A stretch of DNA of 64,000 nucleotides from Arenibacter echinorum. GTDB taxonomy: Bacteria; Bacteroidota; Bacteroidia; Flavobacteriales; Flavobacteriaceae. Positions within the stretch are counted from its first letter, which is position 1. Every line of letters starts with the position of its first letter. The stretch covers positions 498,495-562,494 of the forward strand of contig NZ_QLLN01000004.1 in assembly GCF_003259375.1 (NCBI RefSeq). The letters are read 5' to 3'. Below the pieces are notes generated by a model that worked only from the letters and a program-made list of their open reading frames with translations, did no database searches and was not told where the DNA came from. Shown in pieces: positions 15,730-48,757 of the stretch. The position numbers were made by a program, and so were the translations under genes.

Positions 15730-15762
15730 AAAAATAATAATTAATACAAGAAAATTTAAGTA

Positions 15763-18823: not shown

Positions 18824-18902
18824 AGTTCATTATTTTAAGCATACAAACTGAGTTATAAGTCCCCCATTTATTGATTGTCAAATAGGTAAAACAAAAATCA
18901 CC

Positions 18903-20063: not shown

Positions 20064-20143
20064 TCTGTAAATAGTAATTGGTCCAAAGAACAACTGACAA
20101 GATATTTGTTATAAAGAACACTTATGACATCCAAAAGATAAGC

Positions 20144-24407: not shown

Positions 24408-25568
24408 CTATGAAATAAGATGCTTTGGAAAGTCCTTTACGTCTTCACAACAAATCTGTTCCATTACCTGTTGTAGTTCTGTTTTTAAAAGTGAAATGGT
24501 ATGGTCACCACCTTTGGCGCCCAGTGCCGCTACCCCGTACATAAAGGAACGCCCCATAAAAGTAAATTCGGCACCACTGGCCATGGTCCTGGCGATATCC
24601 GGACCACCCCTTAGGCCACTGTCCATCATTACCTTTATTTGGTCACCGTATTTTGCAGCTATTCTTGTTAAAGGCTTTATGGTAGATTCACCAGCATCCA
24701 ATTGCCTACCCCCGTGATTGGAAACTATAATACCATCCAATCCGAGTTTAATGGCGCTTTCCGCATCAGCCTCATTCGCAACTCCCTTAATCACCAATTT
24801 GCCCTTCCACATATCCCTTATAGGTTTAATCTTCTCCTCATTTAATCTTCCGGAAAAGGTCTTGTCCATGAATTTGCCTAATTGTGCCAGATCCAAGCCT
24901 TTGGGCATATAAGGTTTAAGGGTTTCAAAGTTGGGCTGACCGTGTATTAGGGTCTGCATGGCCCAATTTGGCTTGCCCAATATCTGAAGTATATTCTTTA
25001 CCGACATTTTTGGGGGCATGGCCAATCCGTTGCGTACATCCCTAGGACGGAAACCGAAGGTAGGCACATCGCACAAAATAACCAGCACCGGACATTCCGC
25101 AGCTTCGGCCCTTTTAATAATGTCATCCCTTACGGCATCCTCTGTAGGATGATAAAGCTGAAACCAAGCCTTTCCCTCGGTAATCTCACTTATGCGTTCT
25201 ATACTACTGGTGGTTACCGTACTTAAAATAAACGGAATATTATGTTCAAAGGCCGATTTAGCCAATATTTCAGGGGCATTGGGCCACATTAATCCTTGGA
25301 GTCCCACTGGAGCAATTCCAAAAGGGGCATCATATACATGTCCGAACAATTCGGTCTTCATACTGGAACCGGTATGCTTGCTAAGGTAATAGGGCAATAA
25401 CTCTATATCCCTAATTTCAGCAGTATTCTTATGTAGGTTTACATCTTCATTACAGCCTCCATCCAAGTATTCAAAAGCGAACTTGGGAATCCTTTTTTGG
25501 GCTCTCTTCCTTAAATCTACAACGGATGGATACTTGCTGTTGATCTTTATTTCTTTTTTTTTCTCCAT
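24408..25568 (-). CDS. lldD: FMN-dependent alpha-hydroxy acid dehydrogenase (L-lactate dehydrogenase-like)
   Basis: The 386-residue TIM barrel is of the LldD/glycolate oxidase family. Visible motifs are FGIAPVGLQGLMWP, WFQLYHP, the KLVIKGVANEADAESAIKLGLDGIIVSNHGGRQLD segment with the catalytic His of SNHGGRQLD, and DSGLRGGPDIARTMASGAEFTFMGR for FMN phosphate. The family oxidises L-lactate or related 2-hydroxy acids. The non-phosphorylating fucose pathway ends in pyruvate and L-lactate, so this gene fits as its last step, feeding electrons to quinone. It is the promoter-distal gene of the minus-strand operon, 96 bp after the DUF6786-like gene. Confidence 0.85.
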   Translation of the reverse strand: MEKKKEIKINSKYPSVVDLRKRAQKRIPKFAFEYLDGGCNEDVNLHKNTAEIRDIELLPYYLSKHTGSSMKTELFGHVYDAPFGIAPVGLQGLMWPNAPEILAKSAFEHNIPFILSTVTTSSIERISEITEGKAWFQLYHPTEDAVRDDIIKRAEAAECPVLVILCDVPTFGFRPRDVRNGLAMPPKMSVKNILQILGKPNWAMQTLIHGQPNFETLKPYMPKGLDLAQLGKFMDKTFSGRLNEEKIKPIRDMWKGKLVIKGVANEADAESAIKLGLDGIIVSNHGGRQLDAGESTIKPLTRIAAKYGDQIKVMMDSGLRGGPDIARTMASGAEFTFMGRSFMYGVAALGAKGGDHTISLLKTELQQVMEQICCEDVKDFPKHLIS

Positions 25569-25664
25569 GGCATTTTAATCTGCAATTGTTCTTGAATATT
25601 TATCTTTTATTTTTCCCCTCCCCATCTATCTAATACAATCTAAAGGGAGGAGATATTTTATTTA

Positions 25665-26924
25665 TTATTCCCCAGATAATTCTTTAATGGACACCCCCAA
25701 AATTCCTTGAGCTAGCTTTTCCAACTCGTCCTCGTCACCTACAAAATGAAAAGTTTGGTGGATATGGCTACTGCTTTCATTGGCTTTTAGATCCATTGCA
25801 GGGGATGAACTTTCCAATTCATAGAATGGCCCTAAATCCCCACTATCGTTATAAGCATTTACCGCATCACCCGAATATGGAAACTCCTGTAACTCCCATA
25901 AAGAATTAACATAATCGGTAGCGCCTTCACGTAGACTAAATTTGGCAATGGTAAGTACTTTGCTCTTGGCATCGTAGCTTCCCATGACAGGCAGCGCCCT
26001 CTGGGGGGAAATTCCAATTTTACCACGCTCTTTACCGTCCGCCTTGAAGAATAGGACACTATCCCCGACCTGTAATCGCTCCTTTGGAATCTTCCCAAAA
26101 TAATCGTCCGTTACCTTCTTGCCCAAAATGTCCTCATCCCCTTTTTTAAAAGGTACAATTATGGTGGTATGGTCCGAGGAGTTGAACATGCTCAATATCC
26201 AAATAGACATTAAGCCTGTTTTCTTATCCCAATCTTCCGGTCCTATATTGGTCAAGTTGTTTTCAGAGGCAAATCCTACCATTTTTAGAGTTTCAGGAAT
26301 ATTGAGTCCAAGAATTTCAGCGGCATCTTCCTTGTCCAAAAGAGTAATATTCCTTTGCACGCGTAAATCGAAAGTAGTTCCGGTATAATTCACCAATTTC
26401 ATGTCCCTTTCAAAATACGCCTTATCTTCAGTTCTCCTCACCAAATTAAAGGCTTCGGTATCCAATTCCTGGGGTACGTACCAGTTGTCCAACTCGAAGT
26501 TGGAATCCTTTTCAAAGAAAAGGGAGTACTGTCCACCTTCAGGTCCCAACCAGAAACGCTCTTCACCCCCTGTGGGATTAAAGTGTTCTTTTATTTCTCC
26601 GGACTTAATGAGTTCATGGTTGATCCATCCAAAACTATGACCTTCGTCGCCAGAGGCCGTACTCGTCATAACACGGCCCTGAAGTTCCGGGGAAATCAAA
26701 ATGCTCGACTCCCCATTTTCCAGAACCACCATGTTTTTGTAGTGTTTGGACAAAAATTCCCTGTCATATCCAAATGACCCCATGGAAAATGCTACCTCAT
26801 CATTTGCCAAGGTATTTGCACTTTGTTCACTTTTAGTTTTACAACTCAAAGCACATAGGAGAGCACATAGCGCTATTGATCTTAGGACAGTTCCGGATCT
26901 AAAAATATTTACTATACTTTCCAT
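25665..26924 (-). CDS. DUF6786-like lipoprotein
   Basis: The protein has 419 residues from the ATG at 26924. I chose this start because it opens a lipoprotein signal peptide (SIALCALLCALSC). The longer frame from 27056 would overlap the mutarotase gene and hide it. From memory the motifs (GRVMTSTASGDEGHSFGWINHELI, GGEERFWLGPEGGQYSLFF) match DUF6786, a Bacteroidota family with a galactose-mutarotase-like beta-sandwich. No activity is known to me. It lies 38 bp after the mutarotase and 96 bp before lldD in the fucose operon, so a role in handling the free sugar in the periplasm is plausible (inference). Confidence 0.75.
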   Translation of the reverse strand: MESIVNIFRSGTVLRSIALCALLCALSCKTKSEQSANTLANDEVAFSMGSFGYDREFLSKHYKNMVVLENGESSILISPELQGRVMTSTASGDEGHSFGWINHELIKSGEIKEHFNPTGGEERFWLGPEGGQYSLFFEKDSNFELDNWYVPQELDTEAFNLVRRTEDKAYFERDMKLVNYTGTTFDLRVQRNITLLDKEDAAEILGLNIPETLKMVGFASENNLTNIGPEDWDKKTGLMSIWILSMFNSSDHTTIIVPFKKGDEDILGKKVTDDYFGKIPKERLQVGDSVLFFKADGKERGKIGISPQRALPVMGSYDAKSKVLTIAKFSLREGATDYVNSLWELQEFPYSGDAVNAYNDSGDLGPFYELESSSPAMDLKANESSSHIHQTFHFVGDEDELEKLAQGILGVSIKELSGE

Positions 26925-26962
26925 GCTCCTATCATTTAGTTTTTGCCTGTTGTTTTTGGTTT

Positions 26963-27292
26963 TTACAATTGAAAAACCTTTTCCATGAGCATCCATTTTT
27001 CCCCAGGTTTTGCAAATGGTAGTGCCTGTTGGTATTTCCACATCAATTCCTCCCACTTTTCGTTTTCGGGATACTTGGCATCAATCTTCGCCTTTTTTTC
27101 AAAGGAAAAACTGTCATCCGCATCAATGATCATAAACATACGGTTCCTCACCCTATATATTTCCATATCCTGTATACCGGACTCCCTAAGACTTTGAAGG
27201 ATCTCCGGCCATACTTCCTTATGGTAATCGTCATAAGCCTTTATCAACTCTGGATCATCCTTAAGATCCAATGCCAAACAATATCTTTTCAT
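26963..27292 (-). CDS. L-rhamnose mutarotase-family protein, probable L-fucose mutarotase
   Basis: The 109-residue protein is a ferredoxin-like dimer fold of the RhaM/DUF718 family: YDDYHKEVWPEILQSLRESGIQDMEIYRV with the conserved His and Glu, then MFMIIDADDSFSF and PFAKPGEKWMLMEKVFQL. RhaM interconverts the anomers of L-rhamnose. Family members in fucose loci act on L-fucose, and this one sits 56 bp after fucP, so L-fucose is the likely substrate. It would supply the anomer required by the dehydrogenase or isomerase. Confidence 0.85.
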   Translation of the reverse strand: MKRYCLALDLKDDPELIKAYDDYHKEVWPEILQSLRESGIQDMEIYRVRNRMFMIIDADDSFSFEKKAKIDAKYPENEKWEELMWKYQQALPFAKPGEKWMLMEKVFQL

Positions 27293-27348
27293 TACTTTAC
27301 ATTTTTTAGTTAATTATTAAAAACCACACAAAGGACCAATCCGATTCC

Positions 27349-28659
27349 TTAGGCCTGTAGTTCATACTTTTTAAATACACGCAATCCATACCATGCTATA
27401 TATACAAAACAAAGCGCTGGAAGGATGAAGGAAAAATTCACTTCGGTAGCACCCATAATTTGTATGTCGTTCACGGCATTGCCACCGGCATCAATGATCA
27501 TTCCTTGAAGCTTTGGCATTAGGGCCCCGCCTACAATTGCCATTACAAGACCGGCAGCACCAATCTTGGATTCCTCCTCATTAAGTCCATTCAAAGCAAT
27601 TCCGTAGATGGTAGGGAACATAAGGGACATAAAAAAGGTAATCCCTACCAAGCAGTACAAGCCTATTATACCTTCAATATAAATAGTACCAATACAGCAC
27701 AGCGTTGCAAAAACGGCAAAGTACATCAATAGTTTACCTGGGCTCATAAATCTCAGCATATAGGTGCCAATGGCCCTACCCACCAAGAACAGGATGAAGG
27801 CCGCGAACTGGTAATTGGCAGCATCCTCACTGGAAATCCCTATGGCCTCGGCATATTGATAAATATAGGTCCAGCACATAATCTGGGCACCAACGTAAAA
27901 TATTTGGGCCACAACACCAAGCACATATTTCTTGTTCTTGAACAAACCGTTAAACGTATCCCCCAAACTTGGAATACCACCTTCATCCTTGGCCTGTGGC
28001 ATTTTACTAATAACAATTAGAACAAAAACGGCTAGAATCACCAATCCCAGAATAACATAGGGGTCCCTAATCACCATTAGGTCCGTTGTCCTGATCAAGG
28101 CCTTTTGCGCCTCCTCCAAAGAGGAATAATCTGCTATATCATCCGACTGTAATTTTTTAAGAACAAATTGCTGTGCCACCAATAGGCCCAACAACAATCC
28201 CACTGGATTAAAGGCCTGGGCCAAATTTAAACGCTGCGTAGCCGTTTCTGGCGCTCCCATAGCCAAAATATAAGGGTTGGCAGTGGTTTCCAAAAATGCC
28301 AACCCAAAGGTAAGCACATAAAGTCCCAAGCAAAAGAACCAAAATTGTTCGGTTATGGCCGCAGGATAAAACAATAGAGCCCCTCCTGCATACAAGGCCA
28401 ATCCAATTAAAACCCCTACTTTATACGAGTATTTACGCACGAAAAGTGCAGCTGGCAACGCCATACAAAAGTAACCGCCATAAAACGCCATTTGTACCCA
28501 AGCAGCCTGGGAATTGGACAGTTCCAATACTTTTTTAAATGCCTGTACCATGGGATCGGTAACGGCATTTGCAAAACCCCAAAGGGCGAAAAGGGAGGTA
28601 ATCAAAATAAAGGGAATAAGCACCTTCTTAGATACTACTGGTGGTCTTTGGTCTTTCAT
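27349..28659 (-). CDS. fucP: L-fucose:H+ symporter (MFS)
   Basis: The 436-residue protein has 12 predicted transmembrane segments and is close in length to E. coli FucP (438). The family signatures are ITSLFALWGFANAVTDPMVQAFKKVLELSNSQAAWVQMAFYGGYF in the first two helices, AFLETTANPYILAMGAPETATQRLNLAQAFNPVG and the NGLNEEESKIGAAGLVMAIVGGALMPKLQG segment. Asn and Asp/Glu residues in the first and fourth helices fit the proton-coupled mechanism. It lies 66 bp after the SDR gene, in the middle of the fucose operon, and imports free L-fucose across the inner membrane. Confidence 0.93.
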   Translation of the reverse strand: MKDQRPPVVSKKVLIPFILITSLFALWGFANAVTDPMVQAFKKVLELSNSQAAWVQMAFYGGYFCMALPAALFVRKYSYKVGVLIGLALYAGGALLFYPAAITEQFWFFCLGLYVLTFGLAFLETTANPYILAMGAPETATQRLNLAQAFNPVGLLLGLLVAQQFVLKKLQSDDIADYSSLEEAQKALIRTTDLMVIRDPYVILGLVILAVFVLIVISKMPQAKDEGGIPSLGDTFNGLFKNKKYVLGVVAQIFYVGAQIMCWTYIYQYAEAIGISSEDAANYQFAAFILFLVGRAIGTYMLRFMSPGKLLMYFAVFATLCCIGTIYIEGIIGLYCLVGITFFMSLMFPTIYGIALNGLNEEESKIGAAGLVMAIVGGALMPKLQGMIIDAGGNAVNDIQIMGATEVNFSFILPALCFVYIAWYGLRVFKKYELQA

Positions 28660-28725
28660 TGAATTGTTGATTATTGTTAATTGATTATTATCTGGTTTAC
28701 CTTGTTGTTTATTATATTTAAGCGA

Positions 28726-29508
28726 TTAAGAAATTGACCTGTCCAAATGGGTATATCCGCCATCTACAAAGAGCAATTGCCCAGTGGTGTGACTAGACCT
28801 ATTGGAAAGCAAAAAGGCCACCGTACTTGCGATTTCCTCTGCCGTAGTCATTCTTTGTCCCAACGGAATTTTATCGGTGATGCTCTTTAATTTTTCTTCT
28901 GGATTGTCGAAGGTCTTTATCCATCGATCGTATAAAGGGGTATAACATTCGGCCACGATAACTGCATTGACCCTTATATTATATGGCAATAGTTCCACGG
29001 CCCATTCCCTTGTTATTGCATTGCGCCCTCCATTGGAAGCAGCATAGCCCGAAGTACCCCCTTGCCCGGTTACCGAGGTCTTGGATCCTATATTTACAAT
29101 AGATCCCTGGGTTTTCTTTAGTTCGGGCAACGCATAATGTGCCATTAAATAATAATGGGTAAGGTTTCGATTTATAGATCTTAGAAAATCTTCATAATTC
29201 CCATTTTCCAGCCCCACTCCGTCATTTATGCCGGCATTGTTTACCACACCATCAATCTTCCCATATTTTTCAACAGCAGTTTCCACTGCAAGTCTGCATT
29301 GTTCCGGATCTGTAAGTTCGGCCATTGAATAAGATGCTTTTCCACCATTGTTCTCAATATCGGCAACCACCTCCAACATACTATTTTCATCCCTTCCAAT
29401 AATAACGGGGATAGCGCCTTCGGCCGCCAAGATCATACTTATACCGTGCCCGATTCCTTTGGAACCTCCAGTTACTAAAATTACTTTATCCTTGAGTTGT
29501 AAATCCAT
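28726..29508 (-). CDS. Short-chain dehydrogenase, candidate L-fucose dehydrogenase, with altered YxxxK motif
   Basis: The 260-residue SDR has the NAD(P) motif TGGSKGIGHG, the NNAGIND segment, and a catalytic Ser in NIGSKTSV. The usual Tyr-x-x-x-Lys is Tyr-Ala-Ala-Ser-Asn: GYAASNGGRNA. The lysine is replaced by Asn, and I checked this codon (AAT) in the nucleotide sequence. The rest (VAECYTPLYDRWIKTFDN) follows an SDR subgroup found in fucose loci. I propose oxidation of L-fucose to fuconolactone, the first step of the non-phosphorylating path. The missing Lys may alter chemistry or be offset by another residue. It lies 11 bp after the propeller-GH29 gene. Confidence 0.8.
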   Translation of the reverse strand: MDLQLKDKVILVTGGSKGIGHGISMILAAEGAIPVIIGRDENSMLEVVADIENNGGKASYSMAELTDPEQCRLAVETAVEKYGKIDGVVNNAGINDGVGLENGNYEDFLRSINRNLTHYYLMAHYALPELKKTQGSIVNIGSKTSVTGQGGTSGYAASNGGRNAITREWAVELLPYNIRVNAVIVAECYTPLYDRWIKTFDNPEEKLKSITDKIPLGQRMTTAEEIASTVAFLLSNRSSHTTGQLLFVDGGYTHLDRSIS

Positions 29509-29519
29509 TTTGTTATTGT

Positions 29520-31904
29520 TTAAATTCCATTATCCTCAACAAAATAGGCGCTAAAATCCCTAATCTGCCATAAACCGTCCGAATCTATAATTTTTATTCG
29601 TAATCTACTTAATTTTACGGCATCAAATTTCTCAATTCTTTTATTCCCTATGCTCTCCCCATTGGCCAAAGTAATCCATTGACCACCTGAATACCCTTCA
29701 ATTTCATATTTTCTTATACGTTCGCCCATGGCAATGTCCTCCCGAATTATTACATGGTTCACTGCAAGGGATTCCTTAAACTTCAATTCCAGCACCTTTC
29801 CTTTGCCCCTTGTGGATGCCAAAGGATTAGAAAATCTTCTTTTTATCTCATCTCCCCATTCCTTTAAGCGCTGCACATCCGGCTCTGGAAGTAGTCCGTC
29901 CGGGTCAGGGGTAAGGCCCATTATCAAAGTGGCGTTTCTTCCAACCGATTTATAGTACATATCCATTAAATTATCCAAGGGAAATATATGGTCCTCATCC
30001 CCAGGCTCCCAAAACCATTCGTGTCGGCCGTTATATCCCCTTAATGGGGCATCGGCCATGGCAGGCACCCAATACTTGCCCTTGGCATCCCCTTCTTTCA
30101 ACAATTGAAAATTGTTTTCCGCTATATTCTTCTTGGCACTTTCTCCAGCTCCTGTAGCCCTGTATGGAAAGGTTGACCAATTGGGATAAGCAACTGTTCC
30201 CGATTCTGATCCTCCCCATCGGGCTTCTGCCAATTGCCCGTTATGATAGAACAAACAATTTGGTTGGTACTGCCTTACAATGGGCAAAACGTCCGGGGCA
30301 CCATTTTTCGGATGGTCAGCACCACCATCGAACCAAATTTCGAACAATTCCCCATAGTTGGTACATATTTCCTTGACCATACCCTCTACCATCTTATTGT
30401 ACCATTTTTGTCGATTTTTCTTAAAATCGCCCTCTCCATTTACTTTGAAGTCGTGTACCCCCAAAAATGAATTCCATCTAATCCCCAGATAAATGCCAGG
30501 TTTAATTCCATACTTTCTGCATGAGGCTACAAAATCTGCCACAACGTCCCCTTTTCCGTCCCTCCAATTTAGAGCCTTAACACTGTATGGGTTTACTTTG
30601 GATTGAAACAATGCAAAGCCAGTCTCATGGGTAGCCGTTAGAATGGCAAATTTGGCACCGGCATCCTTTGCAGCCTTTGCCCATTGATCGGTATCCAATT
30701 TTTCTGGATTAAAAATTTGATAGTCTTCTACCGGATCGATTCTATTGTTTCCCTGCCCATATTTTACCCCGTCAAACACATGCAGGTCATAATGAAACAC
30801 CACACCGAGCTCTGCCTCCTGCCAGGCCAATTGCCGCTTGTTGGGGACCGGGAGTTCATTCTCAATAATGGGTATGAAAACGGTATAGGATTCCTCCCCT
30901 TTCTTTACCGCTACGGACAATACTTTAGGTTGGCCGTTCTCATGATAAACAAAGGGACGTTCCATTCTATCCGGACCGATGACCGTACCATCTTCCAATA
31001 AAATTTCTTTATTCTTAAGAACAAACTCATTGGCCTTTTCCCAGTCGGTTCCATTCACCGAAGTCACCAAGCCAATATAATTATGGGCATGGAAAACGCC
31101 ATAGAACCTATTTCGATTTTCATCGTACCAAATAGACATATCTTCGGTGTCCATATAATCTATTACCGGTTTCTCCTGAATCTCAAAGGGGCCATCGGGA
31201 TGTTCCGAAACCCCTACCGCCTGGTTCCTGATAAATCTTTTTTCGTTGGGCTTATCTCCTTTTATGATCAAATAATATTTGCCATCCTTGCCCTTGTCAA
31301 TAGCGGGATTAACGGTAAGTGTGGCAATGGGTCCTGAGGGTTCCACCAAGGGTTTATCCATTCTCGTCCAGGGTCCGTTCAAGGAATTCGACACCGCCAC
31401 CCCCGTACGCTGGTTCGGACGCAATATCTTCCAATTGGGATGGGCATAACCTGTTTTGGCGGTTTCTACCAATTCCCCATCGGTATAATCCTTGCCACCC
31501 ATATTGGTCCCTATATAGTACAAATAATATTTACCTTCAAAATATTTGATTTTCGGGTTGTGCGCTGTTATGGCATCCCAGTTGCCCCGACCACTACCAC
31601 TTAGTGCAGTTTCCTTATACTTCCATGGTCCGGCCGGACTTTTACTAGTGGCATGGGCAATTTCAGAGTGCGTAAGCCATCCATGAAACCCGTATTGTTT
31701 TTTCCAGCGGGAATAAAATAGATGGTATTTGCCATCCCTTTCCTTGATTATGGAACTTCCCCAATTATAATAACCTTCTGTTTTATAAATGTTGTCACTG
31801 GACACTCTTCCGAAGTTATCGAATAAGTATAAGTCGTCTTCCCCATTTTGGGCAAATGCCGAAACAAAACAAAAGCAACACAGTACAAACAATCTTAACT
31901 TCAT
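29520..31904 (-). CDS. GH43/GH117-like propeller fused to GH29 alpha-L-fucosidase
   Basis: The 794-residue secreted protein has a signal peptide ending at FAQ (residue 19). Residues ~25-345 are a five-bladed propeller like GH43/GH117 (WGSSIIKERDGKYHLFYS, GNWDAITAHNP with Asp110, GPDRMERPFVY with Glu316). Residues ~358-695 are a GH29 barrel (WQEAELGVVFHYD, ATHETGFALF, and nucleophile Asp526 in EIWFDGGAD). Residues ~700-790 are a galactose-binding-like C-terminal domain. GH29 releases alpha-L-fucose. The propeller may cut a second linkage on the same chain. It follows the first sulfatase by 7 bp. This architecture is unfamiliar to me and is one of the most interesting genes of the window. Confidence 0.82.
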   Translation of the reverse strand: MKLRLFVLCCFCFVSAFAQNGEDDLYLFDNFGRVSSDNIYKTEGYYNWGSSIIKERDGKYHLFYSRWKKQYGFHGWLTHSEIAHATSKSPAGPWKYKETALSGSGRGNWDAITAHNPKIKYFEGKYYLYYIGTNMGGKDYTDGELVETAKTGYAHPNWKILRPNQRTGVAVSNSLNGPWTRMDKPLVEPSGPIATLTVNPAIDKGKDGKYYLIIKGDKPNEKRFIRNQAVGVSEHPDGPFEIQEKPVIDYMDTEDMSIWYDENRNRFYGVFHAHNYIGLVTSVNGTDWEKANEFVLKNKEILLEDGTVIGPDRMERPFVYHENGQPKVLSVAVKKGEESYTVFIPIIENELPVPNKRQLAWQEAELGVVFHYDLHVFDGVKYGQGNNRIDPVEDYQIFNPEKLDTDQWAKAAKDAGAKFAILTATHETGFALFQSKVNPYSVKALNWRDGKGDVVADFVASCRKYGIKPGIYLGIRWNSFLGVHDFKVNGEGDFKKNRQKWYNKMVEGMVKEICTNYGELFEIWFDGGADHPKNGAPDVLPIVRQYQPNCLFYHNGQLAEARWGGSESGTVAYPNWSTFPYRATGAGESAKKNIAENNFQLLKEGDAKGKYWVPAMADAPLRGYNGRHEWFWEPGDEDHIFPLDNLMDMYYKSVGRNATLIMGLTPDPDGLLPEPDVQRLKEWGDEIKRRFSNPLASTRGKGKVLELKFKESLAVNHVIIREDIAMGERIRKYEIEGYSGGQWITLANGESIGNKRIEKFDAVKLSRLRIKIIDSDGLWQIRDFSAYFVEDNGI

Positions 31905-31911
31905 ATTCCTT

Positions 31912-33471
31912 TTAGCTTTTGTAAGTATTTAAAATCATATCCGGATAGGCAATCTGTTCCCCTGTATCTTTTCTGGAAGGTATCTGGGCCTCCACTTTCC
32001 TTAAGTAATCCGATAATATCTTGGCCAACTCCCTTGCTTTTTCTGGCTGCTCTTTTACCAAATTCCTGGTTTCCCCAATATCCTCCTTGATATTGAACAA
32101 CTCCATACTACTGTCATTGTAGTAGTAAATAAATTTCCAGTCGCCCACCCTAGTGCTACTGGAAGCTCCGATTCCCGGTCCGGATGGCCCCCATTCATTG
32201 GGATAGTGCCAAAATAATGGTCTAGTAACACCACTAGTGTTCCCGGAAAGCGTTGGCAGAAAACTAACACCGTCTACCTTTTGTACCGTTTCATAGTTCT
32301 TAATGCCTGCCATTTCCAAAATGGTTGGGTAAAAATCTTCTATTATCACTTGCTGGTCTACCACCGAATTAGGTTTAATTTTCCCTGGCCACTTTACCAA
32401 CATTGGCTCGCGGATACCCCCTTCATGAGCTGAACCTTTTCCACTGCTCAAAGGTTTGTTATGGGTGTGTTTTTCCCCTCCCCTGGCCACAGCACTCAGT
32501 CCGCCGTTATCCGACATGAACAGGATAATAGTATTGTCCGAAATCTTTTTATTATCCAGATAATCCATTATATCGCCCAAACTCTTGTCCATTCCCTCTA
32601 CCAAAGCAGCGTATTTGGCCTCTGTGGAATCCAGACCTTTGTCATAATATTTCTGAACAAATCTGCGGTCGGCCATAATGGGCGTATGCACGGCATAATG
32701 GGCCATATACAAAAAGAAAGGTTTGTTTTTTTCCAAGGCAGCGTCCATGGCCAATTGCGCTTCTTGGGTAATGGCCTCCGTTAAAAATATATCCTTTCCA
32801 TAATATTTCTCCAATCCGGGAACAGCCCAAACTTTCCTTCCTTCCTTTCCATTTCCAAAATTCTCGGTTCCCAAATAACTCCCGGGAGCCCCTGCTGCGT
32901 GACCGGCTATATTTATTTCAAAACCAAGCTTCAAAGGGTCTTCCCCTGGGGTACCGATAGCTCCCAAATGCGCCTTTCCGGAATGTATGGTAACATAGCC
33001 CGCCTCCTTCAAAACTTGTGGCAGGGGCGTGGCATATACCGCCTTGTCTACCCCGGCAACCGGACTCAAACCATTTACGTTCCACTCTGGAAATTTTAGG
33101 GTTTTGTGGTTGGTTTCCATAGGCTGTAATTTGTCCTTGTACAATGTCCAGTTGGTAACCCTGTGTCTGGCCGCATTCATCCCTGTCATTAGACTTACCC
33201 TGGTCGGTGAACATACCGCCGTGGAATAGGCCTGGGTAAATTTCATTCCTTCCTTTGCCAAACGCTCCATATTTGGGGTGTGGTAGCGATCATTATATAG
33301 GGTTCTTTCACTCCAAAAAGGGACTGAAGTATCCTGCCAGCCCATATCATCCACGAAAAAAAGTACAATATTGGGGGTCGCGGGTACATCAACGCCTTTA
33401 GGAATCACTTTCTCCTTACAGCCTAATGCCAGAAGGGCAATACTTAAACACCACAATACATATCCTTTCAT
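31912..33471 (-). CDS. S1-family sulfatase lipoprotein (FGly-dependent)
   Basis: The 519-residue lipoprotein (lipobox LALGC, Cys18) is a type I sulfatase. Metal-binding NIVLFFVDDMGWQD (Asp41-Asp42) is followed by the formylglycine motif CSPTR at residues 87-91 in AVCSPTRVSLMTG. Further motifs are IHSGKAHLG, FLYMAHYAVHTP and FMSDNGGLS. Cys87 must be converted to formylglycine by a maturase, which is not encoded in the window. It probably removes sulfate esters from fucose units. It is 24 bp after the GH29 gene and 7 bp before the fused GH29 gene. Confidence 0.92.
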   Translation of the reverse strand: MKGYVLWCLSIALLALGCKEKVIPKGVDVPATPNIVLFFVDDMGWQDTSVPFWSERTLYNDRYHTPNMERLAKEGMKFTQAYSTAVCSPTRVSLMTGMNAARHRVTNWTLYKDKLQPMETNHKTLKFPEWNVNGLSPVAGVDKAVYATPLPQVLKEAGYVTIHSGKAHLGAIGTPGEDPLKLGFEINIAGHAAGAPGSYLGTENFGNGKEGRKVWAVPGLEKYYGKDIFLTEAITQEAQLAMDAALEKNKPFFLYMAHYAVHTPIMADRRFVQKYYDKGLDSTEAKYAALVEGMDKSLGDIMDYLDNKKISDNTIILFMSDNGGLSAVARGGEKHTHNKPLSSGKGSAHEGGIREPMLVKWPGKIKPNSVVDQQVIIEDFYPTILEMAGIKNYETVQKVDGVSFLPTLSGNTSGVTRPLFWHYPNEWGPSGPGIGASSSTRVGDWKFIYYYNDSSMELFNIKEDIGETRNLVKEQPEKARELAKILSDYLRKVEAQIPSRKDTGEQIAYPDMILNTYKS

Positions 33472-33495
33472 CTGTGTACTTTTTCCAACAATGGC

Positions 33496-34836
33496 CTAAT
33501 TACTTTCTATTATCGAGCCATCCTCGCGATATAGATCCACCTTACCATCTAGCATAACAGCCAGAACGGTCATGTTCTCGTCCAGAACATGTTCCGGCAA
33601 CTTTATATAATTGATTCCTGGGTAATGGCTCCAATAAATCTTGCCAATAACCTGATGTGAGAGCTTGGTTCCCTCGCCCACTACATAAATGCGGTTGATC
33701 TTATTTTTAAGTCCACGTATAACTACCTCCCCATTCGAATTGCCTTTTACGAACAAATAAAGGATGTTCTGGTCTTCCGATAAGGTAGTAGGGCCATAAA
33801 AATGTTCTTTTGGAATCCCGGACCGGGTACCGTAAATAGCTTCCTTGTGCTTGTTTGTCCACCTGCCCATACCTTCCAAGATGGCTACCTGCTCTTCTGG
33901 AATACTGCCATCTCCTTTGGGACCTATGTCCAACAACATATTGCCCCCATTACCTATGACATCGGCAAAAATTCCAATAATTTGGTCCGTAGTTTTGTAG
34001 TTGTGATCATTTTTTTGAAAACCCCAAGAATCGTTCATGGTAAGACATAATTCCCAATATTTGTTCTTGGGCCTGGTAATCGGCATCCCCTGTTCCGGAG
34101 TGGCGTAATCCCCTTGTTCCCTCAGTCTGGAATTCAAAATGGTATTGGGATTTTTGTCAAAAAGCATTTGCCTTACCTTAGGCACTTGCCATTCCTCCGA
34201 ATTGTGTTCCCAGTCCCCATCAAACCAATACAGATCGGGATTGTAATTATCCGAAAGTTCCTTTAACTGACCTTGATAGTAGTTTAGGAACTTGTTCCAC
34301 CGCTTAGGTTCTTCTGAAATTTTATATCTAATGGAATCCCTTGTAAAGTGGGTATAATCATGGTAGGACCAATCGGGCAACGAATAATAAATACCCACTT
34401 TTAAATTATTTTTTCGGAGTTCGGAGACAAAAGGGGTTAACACATCCTTGTTGGCCGCAGAACTTTTAACAGTATTAAAATCACCAAATTTAGTATCCCA
34501 AAGGGCAAAGCCTTCGTGATGTTTGGAAGTAATTACCGAATATTTGGCGCCACTGCGCTTTATCAGATCGGCCCAAGCTGTTGGGTCGTACTTTTTGGCG
34601 GTGAACCCCTTGGTTTGATTTACATAATCTTCATGTGAAATATAGCCATTGTAAAACGACCAGGATTCATCTATTCCATTTACGGAATATAAGCCCCAGT
34701 GGATAAAAATTCCAAGCTTGGCGTCCTTGAACCATTGCATCTTTTGTTCGTTCTGCAAAACGGTATCCACAACCTGTTCCTGGGCAAAATTTGTCGTAAT
34801 CGTCAATAAAAATAAAGAGGTAATAAGTTTCTTCAT
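33496..34836 (-). CDS. GH29 alpha-L-fucosidase
   Basis: This is a 446-residue secreted GH29 fucosidase with signal peptide ending near NFAQ (residue 18). Family motifs are FKDAKLGIFIHWGLYSVNG, SKHHEGFALWDT, DLYWFDGDWEH with the presumed nucleophile Asp206, and GNGGNMLLDIGPKGDGSIP. A short C-terminal beta domain follows, without a carbohydrate-binding module, so the length is that of a single-domain enzyme. It hydrolyses terminal alpha-L-fucose. It lies between an esterase (23 bp upstream) and the sulfatase (24 bp downstream), consistent with sequential stripping of a decorated fucan. Confidence 0.93.
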   Translation of the reverse strand: MKKLITSLFLLTITTNFAQEQVVDTVLQNEQKMQWFKDAKLGIFIHWGLYSVNGIDESWSFYNGYISHEDYVNQTKGFTAKKYDPTAWADLIKRSGAKYSVITSKHHEGFALWDTKFGDFNTVKSSAANKDVLTPFVSELRKNNLKVGIYYSLPDWSYHDYTHFTRDSIRYKISEEPKRWNKFLNYYQGQLKELSDNYNPDLYWFDGDWEHNSEEWQVPKVRQMLFDKNPNTILNSRLREQGDYATPEQGMPITRPKNKYWELCLTMNDSWGFQKNDHNYKTTDQIIGIFADVIGNGGNMLLDIGPKGDGSIPEEQVAILEGMGRWTNKHKEAIYGTRSGIPKEHFYGPTTLSEDQNILYLFVKGNSNGEVVIRGLKNKINRIYVVGEGTKLSHQVIGKIYWSHYPGINYIKLPEHVLDENMTVLAVMLDGKVDLYREDGSIIESN

Positions 34837-34859
34837 GTATAAAAAATATGTAATTTAAA

Positions 34860-36254
34860 TTATTTCAATTCCCAATTGTCCGTCCTAAAAGCGGAGGCAG
34901 GCAAGCCCTCTGAATTGAATAGATTGGGCAATGCCCCATTGGTAAAAGCAAACCGAACCGCTGCCGGTTTTTTTACTTTTGAACAGGACACTTCTACCGT
35001 ATTACCACTAATCTTGGCCTTGGCGGGATAAAATACCCCGTCCTCCGCGGCAATAAAAAATTCCCGTAGATCCTTGCCCTTTTGCATTAAACCCTTGTTG
35101 GCATGATCAAAACTGAGGATAATTTTTTTATTCTTAATTTCCTTTGACCTATATACAGGTCCTGAATATTCCAACCCATCCTTCCCATAGGTTTTACCCA
35201 AGGCCCAAAGTGCCAAACGATGTCCTACATCCTGTTTGTTAGTGGGATGTATGTTCTCCAGATTCCCGATATCATTGGTGACCACCATGCCCGTATTGTC
35301 CAAATTTTGCATGGTATACAATTGTGCGTCCCTTACATGTGCCGCATCAGTGTCCATGGGATCGTCATATTTATAAGGGGCTATCTGCACAAAATAAAAT
35401 GGCAGATCCTTGCCCCATTCTTCCCTCCAGGACTCGATCATCAAGGGAAAAGATTTGTAATAGGAAACAGGATTTACCCTATTGGATTCCCCTTGGTACC
35501 AAATACAACCCGCTATATTAAATTTAGTAATAGGGTGTATCATGGCATTGTAGGCCAAGCCCGGATTGCTGGGCCACCAAGCAACCTCATTCAATTTTTT
35601 CGCCGCTTCCGCTAAATGAGTATCCTCGGTTATCAATTCCTTTTTTAACCAAACTTCCACTGGCGTACCTCCCCAACTGGAGTTGATAATACCCACAGGA
35701 ACGTCCAAATTTTGATGTAGTTCCTTACCAAAAAAATAAGCCACAGAACTAAACTGGGCCATAGTTTCAGGAGTACAAACCTCCCATTTACCCTTTAGTT
35801 GGTCTTGGGGATGATCCGATATCTGCTGCGCCACCTGAAAGAAACGTATTTCAGGGAAATTGGCAGTTTTGATCTCTTCTTCCGCGTTGTCCAAACCATG
35901 TTTTGGAGTCCATTGCATATTGCTTTGTCCAGAACCCAACCAAACTTCCCCTATCAGTACATTTATCAACTCCAATTTCTCATGGCCTTCCACGATTACA
36001 CTGTAAGTGCCCCCAGCTTTGGGAGTAGGCAATTGCAGGGACCAAACTCCCTGAAAGGCCTTGGTCGTTACTTTTTCATTGTTCCAAGTCCCATATACGC
36101 TAATATCCTCGCTAGTACTTGTTGTCCATCCCCAAATGGTGACATTCGAATCTTGTTGCAGTACCATATTATCCGAAAGAATGGAAGGAAGCCAAATTTC
36201 TCCATAAGTATTGGCTACGGATAGCAGTAGCAGTAATCCTAAGAATTTTTTCAT
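34860..36254 (-). CDS. Sialate O-acetylesterase-family (SASA) carbohydrate esterase
   Basis: The 464-residue secreted protein has a signal peptide near residues 1-18 and the SASA/SGNH fold: the catalytic Ser in GEVWLGSGQSNMQW, GIINSSWGGTPVEVW, IWYQGESNRVNP and the His in IHPTNKQDVGHRLALW. It probably removes O-acetyl groups, which fits acetylated fucoidan. Similar proteins work on many acetylated sugars and the name sialate is historical. It lies 7 bp before the three-domain esterase and 23 bp after the GH29 gene in transcription order, forming an esterase pair. Confidence 0.9.
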   Translation of the reverse strand: MKKFLGLLLLLSVANTYGEIWLPSILSDNMVLQQDSNVTIWGWTTSTSEDISVYGTWNNEKVTTKAFQGVWSLQLPTPKAGGTYSVIVEGHEKLELINVLIGEVWLGSGQSNMQWTPKHGLDNAEEEIKTANFPEIRFFQVAQQISDHPQDQLKGKWEVCTPETMAQFSSVAYFFGKELHQNLDVPVGIINSSWGGTPVEVWLKKELITEDTHLAEAAKKLNEVAWWPSNPGLAYNAMIHPITKFNIAGCIWYQGESNRVNPVSYYKSFPLMIESWREEWGKDLPFYFVQIAPYKYDDPMDTDAAHVRDAQLYTMQNLDNTGMVVTNDIGNLENIHPTNKQDVGHRLALWALGKTYGKDGLEYSGPVYRSKEIKNKKIILSFDHANKGLMQKGKDLREFFIAAEDGVFYPAKAKISGNTVEVSCSKVKKPAAVRFAFTNGALPNLFNSEGLPASAFRTDNWELK

Positions 36255-36261
36255 ATTATTT

Positions 36262-38397
36262 CTATTTAGTGGCTATAAAATAATTATCTCTAATAAATTT
36301 TCCCCAAACCTTATATCCTTCGGGTAATAAATGTATGCCATCCTGTGAAAACAAATGGGATTTCAAAAATCCCTTTTCATTAGAAAATTCATTAATCAGA
36401 TTGTAATAGAATACATTTTTTTCATTTCCAAGATGCTTGATCAAGTCATGGATTTTATTGTATTTCTTCCTTCTATCCGAACTTGGATCCAAACCCGTTG
36501 GCAGGGGACCGAATAACATTATTTTTGTTCGGGCCGAAAATTTTTTCTTAGTCACCTCCAGTACCTTCCTTATGCCGTTGGCTATTTCGTCTGCACTGTT
36601 ATCCCCAAAATTGTTGACACCAATAGCCAGCACCACCATATTTGGCCGAGCGGCTTCATAGTTTCCATTATTTAAACGATACAAAATGTGTTGGGTACGG
36701 TCACCTGAAATTCCGGCACCGACCCAATTTAAATCTTTAAAATATAGTTCTGCAGCTTCTTTACCTGGGGCATAAGTGACATTAGGTCTATTTCCACCCC
36801 AACCTTGGGTAATGGAATTCCCAATAAGTAGTAGATCAATTTCTTTTGATGCTAGGCACAGGGAATCAATATCATTGGCCTGGGCCCACCAACCCTTTCC
36901 TTCCTTCCAACCCGCAGCCGATCTAAATTCGGCACTCGGGGCTGGAATTTGAGCAAAGTTCACCTTTTGATGGGTTGCGCTTAGAATAAAGTCGACAATC
37001 GGAGTTGGATTTTCCAAACTATGGGGATGATGTCCCACACCCTCCTTATAAATAACGCTAATTGTACCCCCATTAGCCTTAATTGCTTCTTCGAAAGGTT
37101 TTGTGTTCTCCTCAATGGGCACTACCTCATCGGCAGCACCACAAACATGCATCATGGGGAAGCCTCCCTGCGCAATCGATTTAATTTTATGGATAGGATT
37201 CCCTTTAAAATCGGCAATATCCTTTTCACTTTTTAAGCCGTATATTGTTTTGAATACCTCCCAATCCGCTGCGCTTCCCTTCCCCTTCCATAAACCGCCA
37301 GGCCAACTTTTTCCATCCAGAACAGGAGCATCGGCATACACACAGGCCACTTTTTCCGAATTTTTCTCGGCCCAATTATAAATAATCAGTCCTCCTCGAC
37401 TCATTCCTTCCAACACCACTTTTTTGGAGAGCCCGGCCTGGGTCATAAACCCATAAAAACGGTCCCATCGCTTCAACGCCTCAGGACCACCAAACAAATT
37501 GGCCACATCGCAATAAGCAATATGAAAGCCCCTTTCCAATAAGGCAATATCCGTTTGTGGTTCATGACCCCAAAAGCGTGCTCTCAATACCCATGGAGCT
37601 CCTGGAGCCACTTTTTTGGGCTTCACCACTTTGCATGTAATACCTTTATATTCAAAATCTGTGAGATCATAACCATAGAAATTTCCAGTTTCCAAAACTT
37701 TAACTTCCTTGGATTTTAGAATATCTATTTTTCCAATTTCATTTTGGATTACAGCTTCATATATTCTTTTGGCTATAACCGTCGCCCCAAGGGAGGAAGG
37801 GTGTATCTTATCGGGCAATAGTCCAGGTTGATCTATAAACAACTGGTAAAGATCCAACACCTCCGAATTTGTTTTATACGCGACAGTGCGGGTTATAGGG
37901 GTAATTTTATTTTTGATAACCTCATTCCAAATCCGCGTAGTATCGCTAGTAAATGCAGGAACTGGTAGCAAAAGAATTATTCTGGCATTCCTATTATCCT
38001 TTTTAAAGCTATTGATCAAGTCTATATAATCTCCCTCGAAATTGTCCAAATGAATCCGATTTGAAAGCTTACTATCATTGGTGCCCAATTTTATAAAAAC
38101 AACATCGGGCTTAAACTCCAGCGCATTGGAATAGGCCTCCGTTTCTATATAAGGTCTGTCCCCATTTTTTAAAAGGGTACTTCCGCTGACCCCAAAATTC
38201 CGTACCTGATATGTGTTCCCAAGCATGGACTGTAATTGTTCTGGGTAAGCATTTTTTTCCCTATTGGCCACTCCCGAACCATAGGTAATACTGTTTCCTA
38301 CGCAGGCAATTTTAATGGGGTCCTGAAAAGTGGTCCCCATGGATTCAGCTATTGAAAATAACCCTAAAATTAAAAGTATTAATTGCTTCCCAATCAT
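36262..38397 (-). CDS. Three-domain esterase: SGNH - alpha/beta hydrolase - SGNH
   Basis: The 711-residue secreted protein (signal peptide ending near SMGTTFQ, residue 25) joins three hydrolase modules. Residues ~28-215 are an SGNH hydrolase (GNSITYGSG, GTNDSK, DKIHPSSLGA). Residues ~230-475 are an alpha/beta hydrolase with nucleophile motif GMSRGG and a late His in GVGHHPHSL. Residues ~500-711 are a second SGNH domain (GNSITQGWG, GVNNFGD, DGIHLLPEGY). All three catalytic sets look intact. It may remove more than one kind of ester group from the same glycan. It sits 7 bp from the SASA esterase and 35 bp from the GH31 gene. Confidence 0.85.
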   Translation of the reverse strand: MIGKQLILLILGLFSIAESMGTTFQDPIKIACVGNSITYGSGVANREKNAYPEQLQSMLGNTYQVRNFGVSGSTLLKNGDRPYIETEAYSNALEFKPDVVFIKLGTNDSKLSNRIHLDNFEGDYIDLINSFKKDNRNARIILLLPVPAFTSDTTRIWNEVIKNKITPITRTVAYKTNSEVLDLYQLFIDQPGLLPDKIHPSSLGATVIAKRIYEAVIQNEIGKIDILKSKEVKVLETGNFYGYDLTDFEYKGITCKVVKPKKVAPGAPWVLRARFWGHEPQTDIALLERGFHIAYCDVANLFGGPEALKRWDRFYGFMTQAGLSKKVVLEGMSRGGLIIYNWAEKNSEKVACVYADAPVLDGKSWPGGLWKGKGSAADWEVFKTIYGLKSEKDIADFKGNPIHKIKSIAQGGFPMMHVCGAADEVVPIEENTKPFEEAIKANGGTISVIYKEGVGHHPHSLENPTPIVDFILSATHQKVNFAQIPAPSAEFRSAAGWKEGKGWWAQANDIDSLCLASKEIDLLLIGNSITQGWGGNRPNVTYAPGKEAAELYFKDLNWVGAGISGDRTQHILYRLNNGNYEAARPNMVVLAIGVNNFGDNSADEIANGIRKVLEVTKKKFSARTKIMLFGPLPTGLDPSSDRRKKYNKIHDLIKHLGNEKNVFYYNLINEFSNEKGFLKSHLFSQDGIHLLPEGYKVWGKFIRDNYFIATK

Positions 38398-38432
38398 ATA
38401 ATGCCGTTACCCACCGTATTTTTGGATGGATT

Positions 38433-40586
38433 TTATTTGGTTTTAAATTCCCAAGTCACCTTTTTGTTGTAGCCATATGGCTTCCCTTTTTCCGGGCTAC
38501 CTATTGTGCCAACAAGTTTTCCTTTCCGGTCTTTTTTTACTCCTATTTTGACATTGGAAAATTGTCCCTTCTCAAAATCAAAACTCAACCCATCATCATC
38601 GTAAAGTGTATATTCCCCTTCCTTTGTCCCGTAGTGACGAATAATCAGGTCTACCTTTTCACCCATTTTTGGAGCCTGTCTCTGGATTGGGCGCATAGGA
38701 ACAATACCCCCATCCCTAACAAATAGCGGTATTTTTTCTAATCCGGGAGTTACGGTAATTAGCTCGTTTTCCCCAACGAATTCCCCATTGTAGAAATCGA
38801 ACCATTTTCCTTTTGGAAGGATTACCTTTCTCTCATCTTCACCTTCGAACATGGGAGCCACCAAAATATTGTCGCCCATCATATACTGATCCTTTATTTC
38901 ACTTTTAATGGCTACTTTATAGGGATTGTCCGTGGAGTCCAGCTCCCCTTCCGCAACCTTTGGGTCATAAGAAAAGCCATCTACCAAGTTCATTGCCCTA
39001 AAGGGAGGCAAGCCCTCAAAATGATATTGGGAAAAAGTGGAATAAATATAAGGCAATAACTGCATCCTTAAATTGGCCACATCCCTGACAGCCTCTTCCA
39101 CCTCGGGAAAGGACCAAGGTTTGGTACCGTCCGCCCAAGCATTGAGCATGGCCATGGGAGAAAAGCAAACAGATTGCATTCTTCTTAACCACTCCTCGGC
39201 AGTTTTTGAAGCACGGACCTCAGGTGTCCAGAGCACGCCAATAAAGCTACTATTGACCAGGGCCGTTATAAAATCCTTGTGACTGTAGTAATCATTGTAA
39301 ATCACATAGGGCAGGGCACTGGCTCCAGCATTGGATGCCCTTACCAAACCATAGGTTCTCTGATTTTTTTCTTTGAACCATTTTGAGGTCATATCCTGAA
39401 TTAGAAGGCCATAAACCTGCCGCATTTGCTCCCCACTATAGCCAGAGGGAAATGTGGCTACATCCGGCCATACCCAGAAGTCAAAGCCATCAACCTCATC
39501 TATCTTGTACCCACTGACTCCTATATTCAAATGATTTTGAACAAAGTGTTCCTTAAAAATATCCCGGGTTTCGGGAAGCATCAAATCGGGCACAATTCCG
39601 TTCCACACCGTATGGGAAGCGGAAAGACCTTTTAATTTAGGATATAAGGAACCTACTGGGGACACATAGGGATTCAACCATAAATTGGTTCTTATCCCAT
39701 CTGCCAATAATTCGTTATTGAACTTTTTTGGATCTGGGAATCTTGTCTTGTCCCATTCAAAAGTACAGGGATAAGCCATACTATGCCAGCCTGGTTCCAC
39801 TCCAATAAAATCTAAAGGAAAATCGTGATCTTCAAACTCCTGGGCTTCCTTGGCAATATCATCCTGACTGTAAAGCGTAGGTACTCTCTGGGTAAATCCA
39901 AGACCCCATTTCGGAGGAATATAACCACCACCGTTATATAAATTATAGCGTTGTACGGCCTCCATTGGTTTAGACCCTCCATATACATAAACATCGGTTC
40001 CCTTGGCAGGTACCAAAATTTCTACGGCATCGGAATAGGGTTGCGCCTGCCATTGGGGATCAGTGTTCCTGTCCCTCAAAACCGGTTTGTCGTCGGCATC
40101 TACCCTGATACCCGTCCCGGCATAAACGGTAATATATCTGGCGGCGTCTATCAACACTCCATAGCCTTTGGAAGACACATAAAAAGGAACTGGGGCGTGC
40201 GTACGACCATCATCGCGACCCCCGTAATGATCCACATGCAATTGCATTATACGGCCTCTCTGATGTACTGTTTTAAAATTTAGACCCAAGCCATAAATTT
40301 GTTCTTCCCTGCTTAACGGAAATTGCAAATAGGTCTTCCCATCCATTATTTTTGTCTTGATCCTATCCTTTGGAAAAGGAAAATCGGCGGCGGGAAGCCT
40401 GTTTAGAGCCGTCACCTTGGGCTGTATATCCGCAGCGCTTAGCAAGCTTATATCCTCTGGCTCCCCAACACTGGCTTTCCAAATTCCATTTTCAATCTCG
40501 GTCCACTTCAATTCTTGCCCATTAGCACTAGGACAATACATCGAAAACAGGGCGCATAAAACGATGAAACGGAATTTGGAAATCAT
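38433..40586 (-). CDS. GH31 family glycoside hydrolase (alpha-xylosidase/glucosidase-like)
   Basis: The protein has 717 residues from the ATG at 40586, chosen because it opens the signal peptide FRFIVLCALFSMYC. The earlier in-frame ATG at 40673 overlaps the upstream gene. GH31 features are the N-terminal beta-sandwich, WGLGFTQRVPTLYSQDDIAKEAQEF, GVEPGWHSM and the catalytic GYKIDEVDG with nucleophile Asp363 (counted from this start). GH31 enzymes cleave alpha-glucose, alpha-xylose or alpha-galactose ends. In a fucan locus it could remove side-chain xylose or galactose, which is inference. It is 34 bp after the FAH-family gene. Confidence 0.9.
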   Translation of the reverse strand: MISKFRFIVLCALFSMYCPSANGQELKWTEIENGIWKASVGEPEDISLLSAADIQPKVTALNRLPAADFPFPKDRIKTKIMDGKTYLQFPLSREEQIYGLGLNFKTVHQRGRIMQLHVDHYGGRDDGRTHAPVPFYVSSKGYGVLIDAARYITVYAGTGIRVDADDKPVLRDRNTDPQWQAQPYSDAVEILVPAKGTDVYVYGGSKPMEAVQRYNLYNGGGYIPPKWGLGFTQRVPTLYSQDDIAKEAQEFEDHDFPLDFIGVEPGWHSMAYPCTFEWDKTRFPDPKKFNNELLADGIRTNLWLNPYVSPVGSLYPKLKGLSASHTVWNGIVPDLMLPETRDIFKEHFVQNHLNIGVSGYKIDEVDGFDFWVWPDVATFPSGYSGEQMRQVYGLLIQDMTSKWFKEKNQRTYGLVRASNAGASALPYVIYNDYYSHKDFITALVNSSFIGVLWTPEVRASKTAEEWLRRMQSVCFSPMAMLNAWADGTKPWSFPEVEEAVRDVANLRMQLLPYIYSTFSQYHFEGLPPFRAMNLVDGFSYDPKVAEGELDSTDNPYKVAIKSEIKDQYMMGDNILVAPMFEGEDERKVILPKGKWFDFYNGEFVGENELITVTPGLEKIPLFVRDGGIVPMRPIQRQAPKMGEKVDLIIRHYGTKEGEYTLYDDDGLSFDFEKGQFSNVKIGVKKDRKGKLVGTIGSPEKGKPYGYNKKVTWEFKTK

Positions 40587-40620
40587 GCCGGTTGGATTGG
40601 TTGGTTGGTTTAACTGCTTC

Positions 40621-41481
40621 TTATTTCCCGCTATAGGCCTTTGCCGTTTGCTTGGAACTACCAAGTCCCTCAATTCCCAATTCTACTACATCCCCAGCTT
40701 TTAAATATTTAGGAGGATTAAATCCTAATCCCACTCCAAAAGGAGTTCCTGTTGAAATAATATCACCTGGCAATAAGCTCATAAACTGACTGATATAGCT
40801 CACTACCTTTTGTACATTGAAGATAAAATCGGAAGTTGAGCTATCCTGTACTGTTTCCCCGTTTAATTTTAACCACAAGTGCAAATTGTTAGGGTCTTTT
40901 ATTTCATCTTTGGTGGCAATAAAAGGTCCTACAGGAGCAAAGGTGTCACAACTTTTTCCTTTTACCCATTGTCCTTCCCTTTCTATTTGAAATGCCCTTT
41001 CACTGTAGTCGTTGTGCAAGACGTAACCAGCAACATGATCCAAAGCGTCAGCCTCTGATACATAAGATGCCTTTTTCCCAATAACCACGGCCAACTCCAC
41101 TTCCCAATCGGTTTTTTCGCTTCCTTTTGGAATAACCACATCATCATTGGGACCAACGATTGCAGAGGTAGCCTTAAAGAACAATACAGGCTCCTTAGGT
41201 ACTGCCATTCCACTTTCTGCCGCGTGCTTAGCATAGTTAAGACCAACACAAACAATTTTTGATGGTCTCACCAATGGTGCGCCCAAACGTACGCTATTGT
41301 CCACTTTAGGACAACTGCTTTCATTTTTTGCCAACCAAGTTTTTAGCTGGGCCAGGCCATCCGTTCCAAAGAAATCTTCGTTGTAATCCCTTCCAAAGGC
41401 CGATACGTCCAATCGGGTACCATTTTCCAATTGCACTCCCGGTTTTTCCTTTCCTACTGCTCCAAATCTTATTAGTTTCAT
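40621..41481 (-). CDS. FAH-family hydrolase, probable 2,4-diketo-3-deoxy-L-fuconate hydrolase
   Basis: The 286-residue protein is a fumarylacetoacetate hydrolase-fold enzyme. The metal-binding signature CVGLNYAKHAAESG, PVLFFKATSAIVGPNDDVVIPKGSEKTDWEVELAVVIGK (Glu and Asp ligands) and GDIISTGTPFGVGLGF are all present. In the Xanthomonas-type fucose pathway a homolog cleaves 2,4-diketo-3-deoxy-L-fuconate to pyruvate and L-lactate. Its location inside the fucose locus, with L-fuconate dehydratase and two SDRs, supports that role. It lies between a sulfatase (92 bp upstream) and GH31 (34 bp downstream), an unusual mixing of catabolic and depolymerising genes in one operon. Confidence 0.85.
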   Translation of the reverse strand: MKLIRFGAVGKEKPGVQLENGTRLDVSAFGRDYNEDFFGTDGLAQLKTWLAKNESSCPKVDNSVRLGAPLVRPSKIVCVGLNYAKHAAESGMAVPKEPVLFFKATSAIVGPNDDVVIPKGSEKTDWEVELAVVIGKKASYVSEADALDHVAGYVLHNDYSERAFQIEREGQWVKGKSCDTFAPVGPFIATKDEIKDPNNLHLWLKLNGETVQDSSTSDFIFNVQKVVSYISQFMSLLPGDIISTGTPFGVGLGFNPPKYLKAGDVVELGIEGLGSSKQTAKAYSGK

Positions 41482-41573
41482 TTGTTTCTATTTATTGAAT
41501 TACTATTTATATAATTATTGTTTCAGGTTTCTAAAAATAAATGCTCAAATTAAACAATTTTCAAATATTCAAA

Positions 41574-43157: not shown

Positions 43158-43169
43158 AATTCTATTTCA

Positions 43170-45521: not shown

Positions 45522-45551
45522 TAAATTTTAATAAGAATCGTATCTAGTCTG

Positions 45552-47795: not shown

Positions 47796-47856
47796 TGAGT
47801 AATATTTGTTTGAATATAATTCCAAATAATGCTGGAATTGGCGTTACTGGTTTCAT

Positions 47857-47898
47857 AAAATGGAACTAAAGCATCAAATTGACATTTAGTTCCATTTT
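47857..47898. terminator. 14-bp hairpin terminator separating the two minus-strand operons
   Basis: AAAATGGAACTAAA (47857-47870) pairs perfectly with 47885-47898, flanked by A and T tracts on both sides. It lies just past the stop of the SDR gene at 47933, before the start of the GH29 operon. Confidence 0.75.
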
Positions 47899-47932
47899 TA
47901 TATCGGCCCAAAAACAGATTTTTAGAGCAAAC

Positions 47933-48709: not shown

Positions 48710-48757
48710 ATTATTCTTTAGATTAATTATCTTATTTACTATTATACTTTTTCACTA

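Follow-up and report, generated by a model that had tools for sequence, protein, structure and literature searches.

A propeller-GH29 gene in a fucose-type locus

The window, i.e., the whole stretch of 64,000 nucleotides of Arenibacter echinorum that was analysed, contains a reverse-strand fucose/sulfated-fucan operon (24408..50080) that encodes an FMN dehydrogenase, an MFS transporter, two SDRs, two S1 sulfatases, SASA, GDSL and GH31 proteins, an FAA hydrolase, a GH141-like protein, an MR_MLE protein and three GH29 proteins, including the one considered here. The window also contains genes for a fucose isomerase and an FGGY kinase (14044-17544, forward strand), a TonB receptor, SusD and two AraC-type regulators. 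We take this gene set to constitute a fucose or sulfated-fucan locus.

The gene of interest, an open reading frame at 29520-31904 on the reverse strand (as are all features of its product given below), codes for a protein of 794 residues, both halves of which score above their Pfam cut-offs: Glyco_hydro_43 (PF04616) at residues 94-220, with 35.4 bits against a cut-off of 32.2, and Alpha_L_fucos at residues 396-685, with 103.7 bits against 25.2. No NCBIfam model matched the protein at E<=0.001. An AlphaFold2 model of the full chain, computed from a 57-row alignment, displays two confident domains (pLDDT 91.2, pTM 0.89), and the propeller modelled by itself attains a pLDDT of 94.5. These matches and modelled domains bear out the proposal of the first-pass annotation that a GH43/GH117-like propeller is fused here to a GH29 fucosidase. 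The chain begins with a putative signal peptide (residues 1-19, 31848..31904), read by eye from the sequence (CFCFVSAFA followed by QN; pLDDT is low at residues 15-20), from which the protein is likely to be exported or periplasmic. It is followed by a five-bladed beta-propeller related to GH117 (residues 20-347, 30864..31847), the GH29 catalytic barrel (residues 348-694, 29823..30863) and a C-terminal beta-sandwich of the GH29 fold (residues 695-794, 29523..29822). Since the AlphaFold2 confidence remains high across the junction of propeller and GH29 (pLDDT 94-96 in the blocks covering residues 331-360), the model suggests that this is likely a rigid two-domain chain.

The neighbouring S1 sulfatase (31912..33471, reverse strand) is closest to 6uss and 7oza; the latter is BT3796, which is described as an S1_16 4S-Gal/GalNAc sulfatase (PMC11760155, PMC10154612).

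Catalytic residues of the two halves

The best solved homologue of the GH29 half in a sequence search is 3gza, presumably BT3798 (663 bits over residues 348-789), with 63% identity and a TM score of 0.97 normalised by the length of 3gza. The predicted nucleophile D526 (30327..30329) and acid/base E567 (30204..30206) are each present in all 54 GH29 rows. The latter aligns with Glu217 of 3ues, whose role is based on the title of entry 3uet, which names the mutant D172A/E217A; we assume this Glu acid/base to be of the subfamily B type. BT3798 is counted among the characterised GH29 enzymes (PMC6817895) and is named among those whose acid/base residue has been assigned (PMC7718225). With Alpha_L_fucos above its curated cut-off and both the Asp nucleophile and the Glu acid/base in place, the GH29 half is intact at its catalytic pair, as had been claimed for Asp526, and is predicted from its sequence to have alpha-L-fucosidase activity. 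The added galactose-binding-like module that had been proposed at the C-terminus is rejected: the last 100 residues align with 3gza to its C-terminus as part of the same GH29 fold, and no separate Pfam match was found there at E<=0.001. The window enzyme has the D526/E567 pair and the C-terminal beta-sandwich in common with the BT3798-like GH29 enzyme, but 3gza lacks a propeller, whereas the window GH29 carries one.

The DSSP strands of the full-length model can be read as five blades, with first strands at residues 45-54, 115-122, 198-204, 254-261 and 313-322, giving the window propeller the five-bladed fold of GH117. Its structural match is better to GH117 than to GH43, with 18-22% identity to the GH117 3,6-anhydro-alpha-L-galactosidases (PpGH117 4ak5/6/7, 3r4y, 3p2n, 4u6b/4u6d). 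In one account of PpGH117, mutation of any one of D90, E167, D245, H302 and E303 inactivates the enzyme, and His302 is the general acid (PMC11574756). When mapped by profile alignment (hhalign), none of these five essential residues is unchanged in the propeller: the general base Asp90 falls at W/G, with N47-W48-G49 replacing R-R-D; Glu254 takes the place of His302; and K118, N199 and D255 stand in for Glu167, Asp245 and Glu303, respectively. Asp320, the partner of His302, aligns with a Tyr beside a gap. As for the Asp/Asp/Glu catalytic triad of GH43, only the acid, E254 in blade IV, seems to be kept, as mapped indirectly by way of GH117. By these alignments, the point of interest is a GH117-fold propeller with a predicted active site that is not of the GH117 type.

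Conservation was assessed on 53 propeller rows, namely the 26 members of set A2, all matching Pfam GH43 at E<=0.01, and 27 added matches; seven rows duplicate another, and the counts given here use the 46 non-redundant ones. In blade I, W48 (31761..31763), which coincides with or adjoins the Asp90 position, is retained in 43 rows and gapped in the other three, and N199 of blade III (31308..31310) in 43, with D in the remaining three. D110, an acid before blade II (31575..31577), is found in 44, with one N and one gap; in a separate count, it is present in 45/45 close and 9/10 far rows. In blade IV, the E254-D255 pair (31140..31145), proposed as the general acid and its neighbour, is seen in 44 and 43 rows, respectively, and in blade V, E315 (30960..30962), a candidate base or nucleophile, in 43, with gaps in the other three. 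K215 (45), W109 (44), H115, N116 and R316 (43 each) and H61 (42) behave comparably. The first-pass annotation had credited the propeller with its own acidic residues Asp110 and Glu316: the former position is correct, and the conserved blade V Glu does exist, but it is E315, residue 316 being an Arg.

Nearly all departures are confined to three of the added rows, L131, L132 and one ORF of L113, the others being an Asn at 110 in L027, an Arg at 215 in L124 and a Tyr at 61 in one row. L131 and L132 resemble GH117 in having D at 199, H at 254 and E at 255, are gapped at 48 and 315 and have an Asp placed at position 51; they therefore act as an internal control that the alignment can detect the GH117 set when it is present. 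No acid occurs at positions 47-51 in any of the 26 rows of A2. Purifying selection is alike in both halves, with omega at 0.05-0.10 for the propeller and 0.04-0.12 for GH29 (ranges from 10 of 11 comparisons, dS being saturated in the eleventh).

Distribution and history of the fusion

A species-genome collection was scanned for exact matches to six peptide patterns of the window protein, and because of this exactness, the scan favours its close relatives. It matched 62 stretches, 57 of which code for relatives, yielding 53 loci, 12 from Arenibacter: the halves are fused in 27, encoded by separate ORFs in four, represented by the propeller only in 12 and by GH29 only in nine, with neither in one at the thresholds used. 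The lone propeller of L065 and the lone GH29 of L068 are both truncated where their contigs end and may belong to fusions. L034 and L069, two of the four separate-ORF loci, are frameshifted; here (L034:750-3206, L069:7932-10359) the propeller-GH29 gene is split into two or three frames, which may reflect sequencing error or decay.

Within the genus, 14 of 18 genomes have a match at E<=1e-60 and four have none; 11 of the matching genomes possess the fusion, two the propeller as a gene of its own (accompanied in one of them by separate GH29 genes located on other contigs) and one GH29 only. Across the family, where two candidates per genome were scored, 25 of 397 genomes match at 1e-120, 14 of them with the fusion, and in the survey of the phylum, matches at 1e-80 occur in 8 of 395 genomes. 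The relatives beyond the genus, among the 53 loci and in the family survey, rule out a curiosity restricted to Arenibacter. The architecture is recurrent, and in searches of the open-licence literature we found neither a published description of it nor, in that on GH117, GH29 and fucan degradation, a characterised enzyme possessing it, in agreement with the first-pass annotation, which knew of none.

On trees of 54 rows each, six label changes are needed for the propeller and three for GH29, counts that could fall because L034, L041 and L065, whose ORFs are broken or cut, are labelled with some uncertainty; judged from these trees, the fusion has probably undergone repeated gain or loss, or been transferred between lineages. 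A lone propeller occupies the corresponding position in both A. latericius and A. certesii, flanked by the sulfatase and the SDR gene, with a gap of 17 nt to the next gene. The genome of the window itself (G000) has two tandem stand-alone propeller paralogues, in frames of 364 and 442 aa, outside the window locus (C8:177409-179650).

A homologue of the neighbouring sulfatase at >=50% identity is present in 27 of the 53 loci, among which the 12 from Arenibacter are not independent cases: by class, in 15/27 fused, 3/4 separate, 6/12 propeller-only and 3/9 GH29-only loci. It was not seen in the examined stretch of 12 of the 27 fused loci and of half of the propeller-only ones, and the examined stretch of 4/12 propeller-only and 4/27 fused loci has neither an S1 gene nor another GH29 gene related to those of the window. 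By contrast, the genome of the window gave 34 sulfatase matches, of which none but the query reaches >=50% identity.

The propeller family has further fusion partners. In genome G417, an S1-type sulfatase is fused to a distant propeller member (L128:1498-3936, reverse strand) directly beside a propeller-GH29 gene. A propeller relative is combined with SASA and an Exo_endo_phos (endonuclease/exonuclease/phosphatase-type) domain in genome G480 (L112:1495-3951, reverse strand) and with SASA in Cyclobacterium jeungdonense (L051:7134-8906, forward strand); in both, the Pfam GH43 match is below the cut-off and the propeller was assigned with a profile made for this analysis or by BLAST.

Possible roles of the propeller

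The notion of two catalytic folds in one chain, advanced in the first-pass annotation, survives in part: the GH29 half is intact and the GH117/GH43-type propeller has conserved acids of its own, but it is devoid of the residues that define GH117 catalysis, and for this reason a second glycosidase activity is put forward here as a hypothesis. The exchange of the usual catalytic residues for another set, itself strictly conserved, suggests an uncharacterised activity beside the fucosidase. We lean, somewhat beyond even chances, towards a two-site secreted or periplasmic exo-enzyme of a sulfated-fucan locus, in which GH29 and a separate propeller hydrolase act in turn. The GH29 half would release alpha-L-fucose through the standard retaining mechanism, with Asp526 and Glu567, as its homology and residues indicate, and the propeller would be a separate hydrolase drawn from GH117/GH43 stock. 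Glu254 would probably fill the general-acid place of GH117 His302. As the GH117 base position is non-acidic in the propeller, the base may be another conserved carboxylate, E315, D110 or D255. K215, R166, R316, H61 and H115, which are conserved basic residues, would probably bind an L-galacto-configured sugar that is sulfated or carries some other anionic group. The adjacent S1 sulfatase might first remove a blocking sulfate, whereupon both halves would act on neighbouring linkages. Against this two-site reading speak the change of all five essential PpGH117 residues, the variety of fusion partners, which a binding module would explain as well, and the loci that lack the expected sulfatase and GH29 neighbours. 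More tentatively, and at rather less than even chances, the propeller could be the founding member of an undescribed GH family of the GH43/GH117 superfamily, with Glu254 as acid and E315 or D110 as base, which acts on sulfated L-fucose linkages and is modularly fused to the enzymes of the steps immediately preceding or following its own (GH29, S1 sulfatase, SASA esterase).

A precedent for the plan of a propeller plus a glycosidase is BT0996, a GH2 beta-glucuronidase joined to a GH137 beta-L-arabinofuranosidase, whose modules act in one chain (PMC9843283); it differs from the propeller-GH29 protein in its families, its linkages (RG-II pectin) and its domain partners.

Alternatively, the propeller might be a catalytically dead GH117/GH43 relative that binds or positions substrate for GH29, leaving a single activity. 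The loss of the GH117 base and Asp245 equivalents, the high conservation of W48, W67, W76 and W109, and the range of fusion partners (GH29, S1 sulfatase, SASA), of a kind often seen with binding modules, are all consistent with this. We nevertheless consider it unlikely, though worth weighing: not only aromatics but also four carboxylates as well as Lys and His rank among the most conserved positions, the constraint on the propeller (omega) resembles that on GH29, and the propeller is also encoded by stand-alone genes, both in the propeller-only loci (the contig-cut L065 included) and as the tandem paralogues. It is improbable that it is instead a metal-dependent esterase or deacetylase acting on fucan acyl groups, like the five-bladed N-acetylgalactosamine deacetylase of F. 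plautii. A canonical GH117 or GH43 enzyme, i.e., an anhydro-L-galactosidase or arabinofuranosidase with misaligned catalytic residues, agrees with the fold and profile similarity; yet this is contradicted at the residue level, as aligned, by the recovery of the GH117-like triplet in L131 and L132 and by the acid-free segment at 47-51 throughout A2, and GH117 is associated with an agar context, whereas the propeller occurs in a fucose context. We regard it as very improbable. The absence of the GH117 catalytic set and the fucose-type locus likewise make 3,6-anhydrogalactose an unlikely propeller substrate.

Many enzymes are required to break down fucoidan, and only a small number of exo-acting activities have been assigned. 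A recurrent, strictly conserved propeller with a replaced GH117 set, fused to a fucosidase, sulfatase or esterase, is a pointer to a step in the degradation of sulfated fucans that is as yet unassigned, and it lends itself to a compact mutagenesis study of the way in which catalytic residues can move to new sites in a propeller glycosidase.

Other products of the window are also of note. The GH141-like right-handed beta-helix protein (43170-45521, reverse strand) ends in a PDZ domain (residues 713-780), which is unusual at the C-terminus of an enzyme of this type. A 711-aa protein (36262-38397, reverse strand) matches PF13472 twice, in two GDSL lipase stretches, and has a weak Peptidase_S9-like segment, scoring below the cut-off, at residues 324-457; it is possibly a multi-esterase fusion. 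Adjoining the fucose isomerase are three consecutive BNR-repeat proteins (17636-21367, forward strand).
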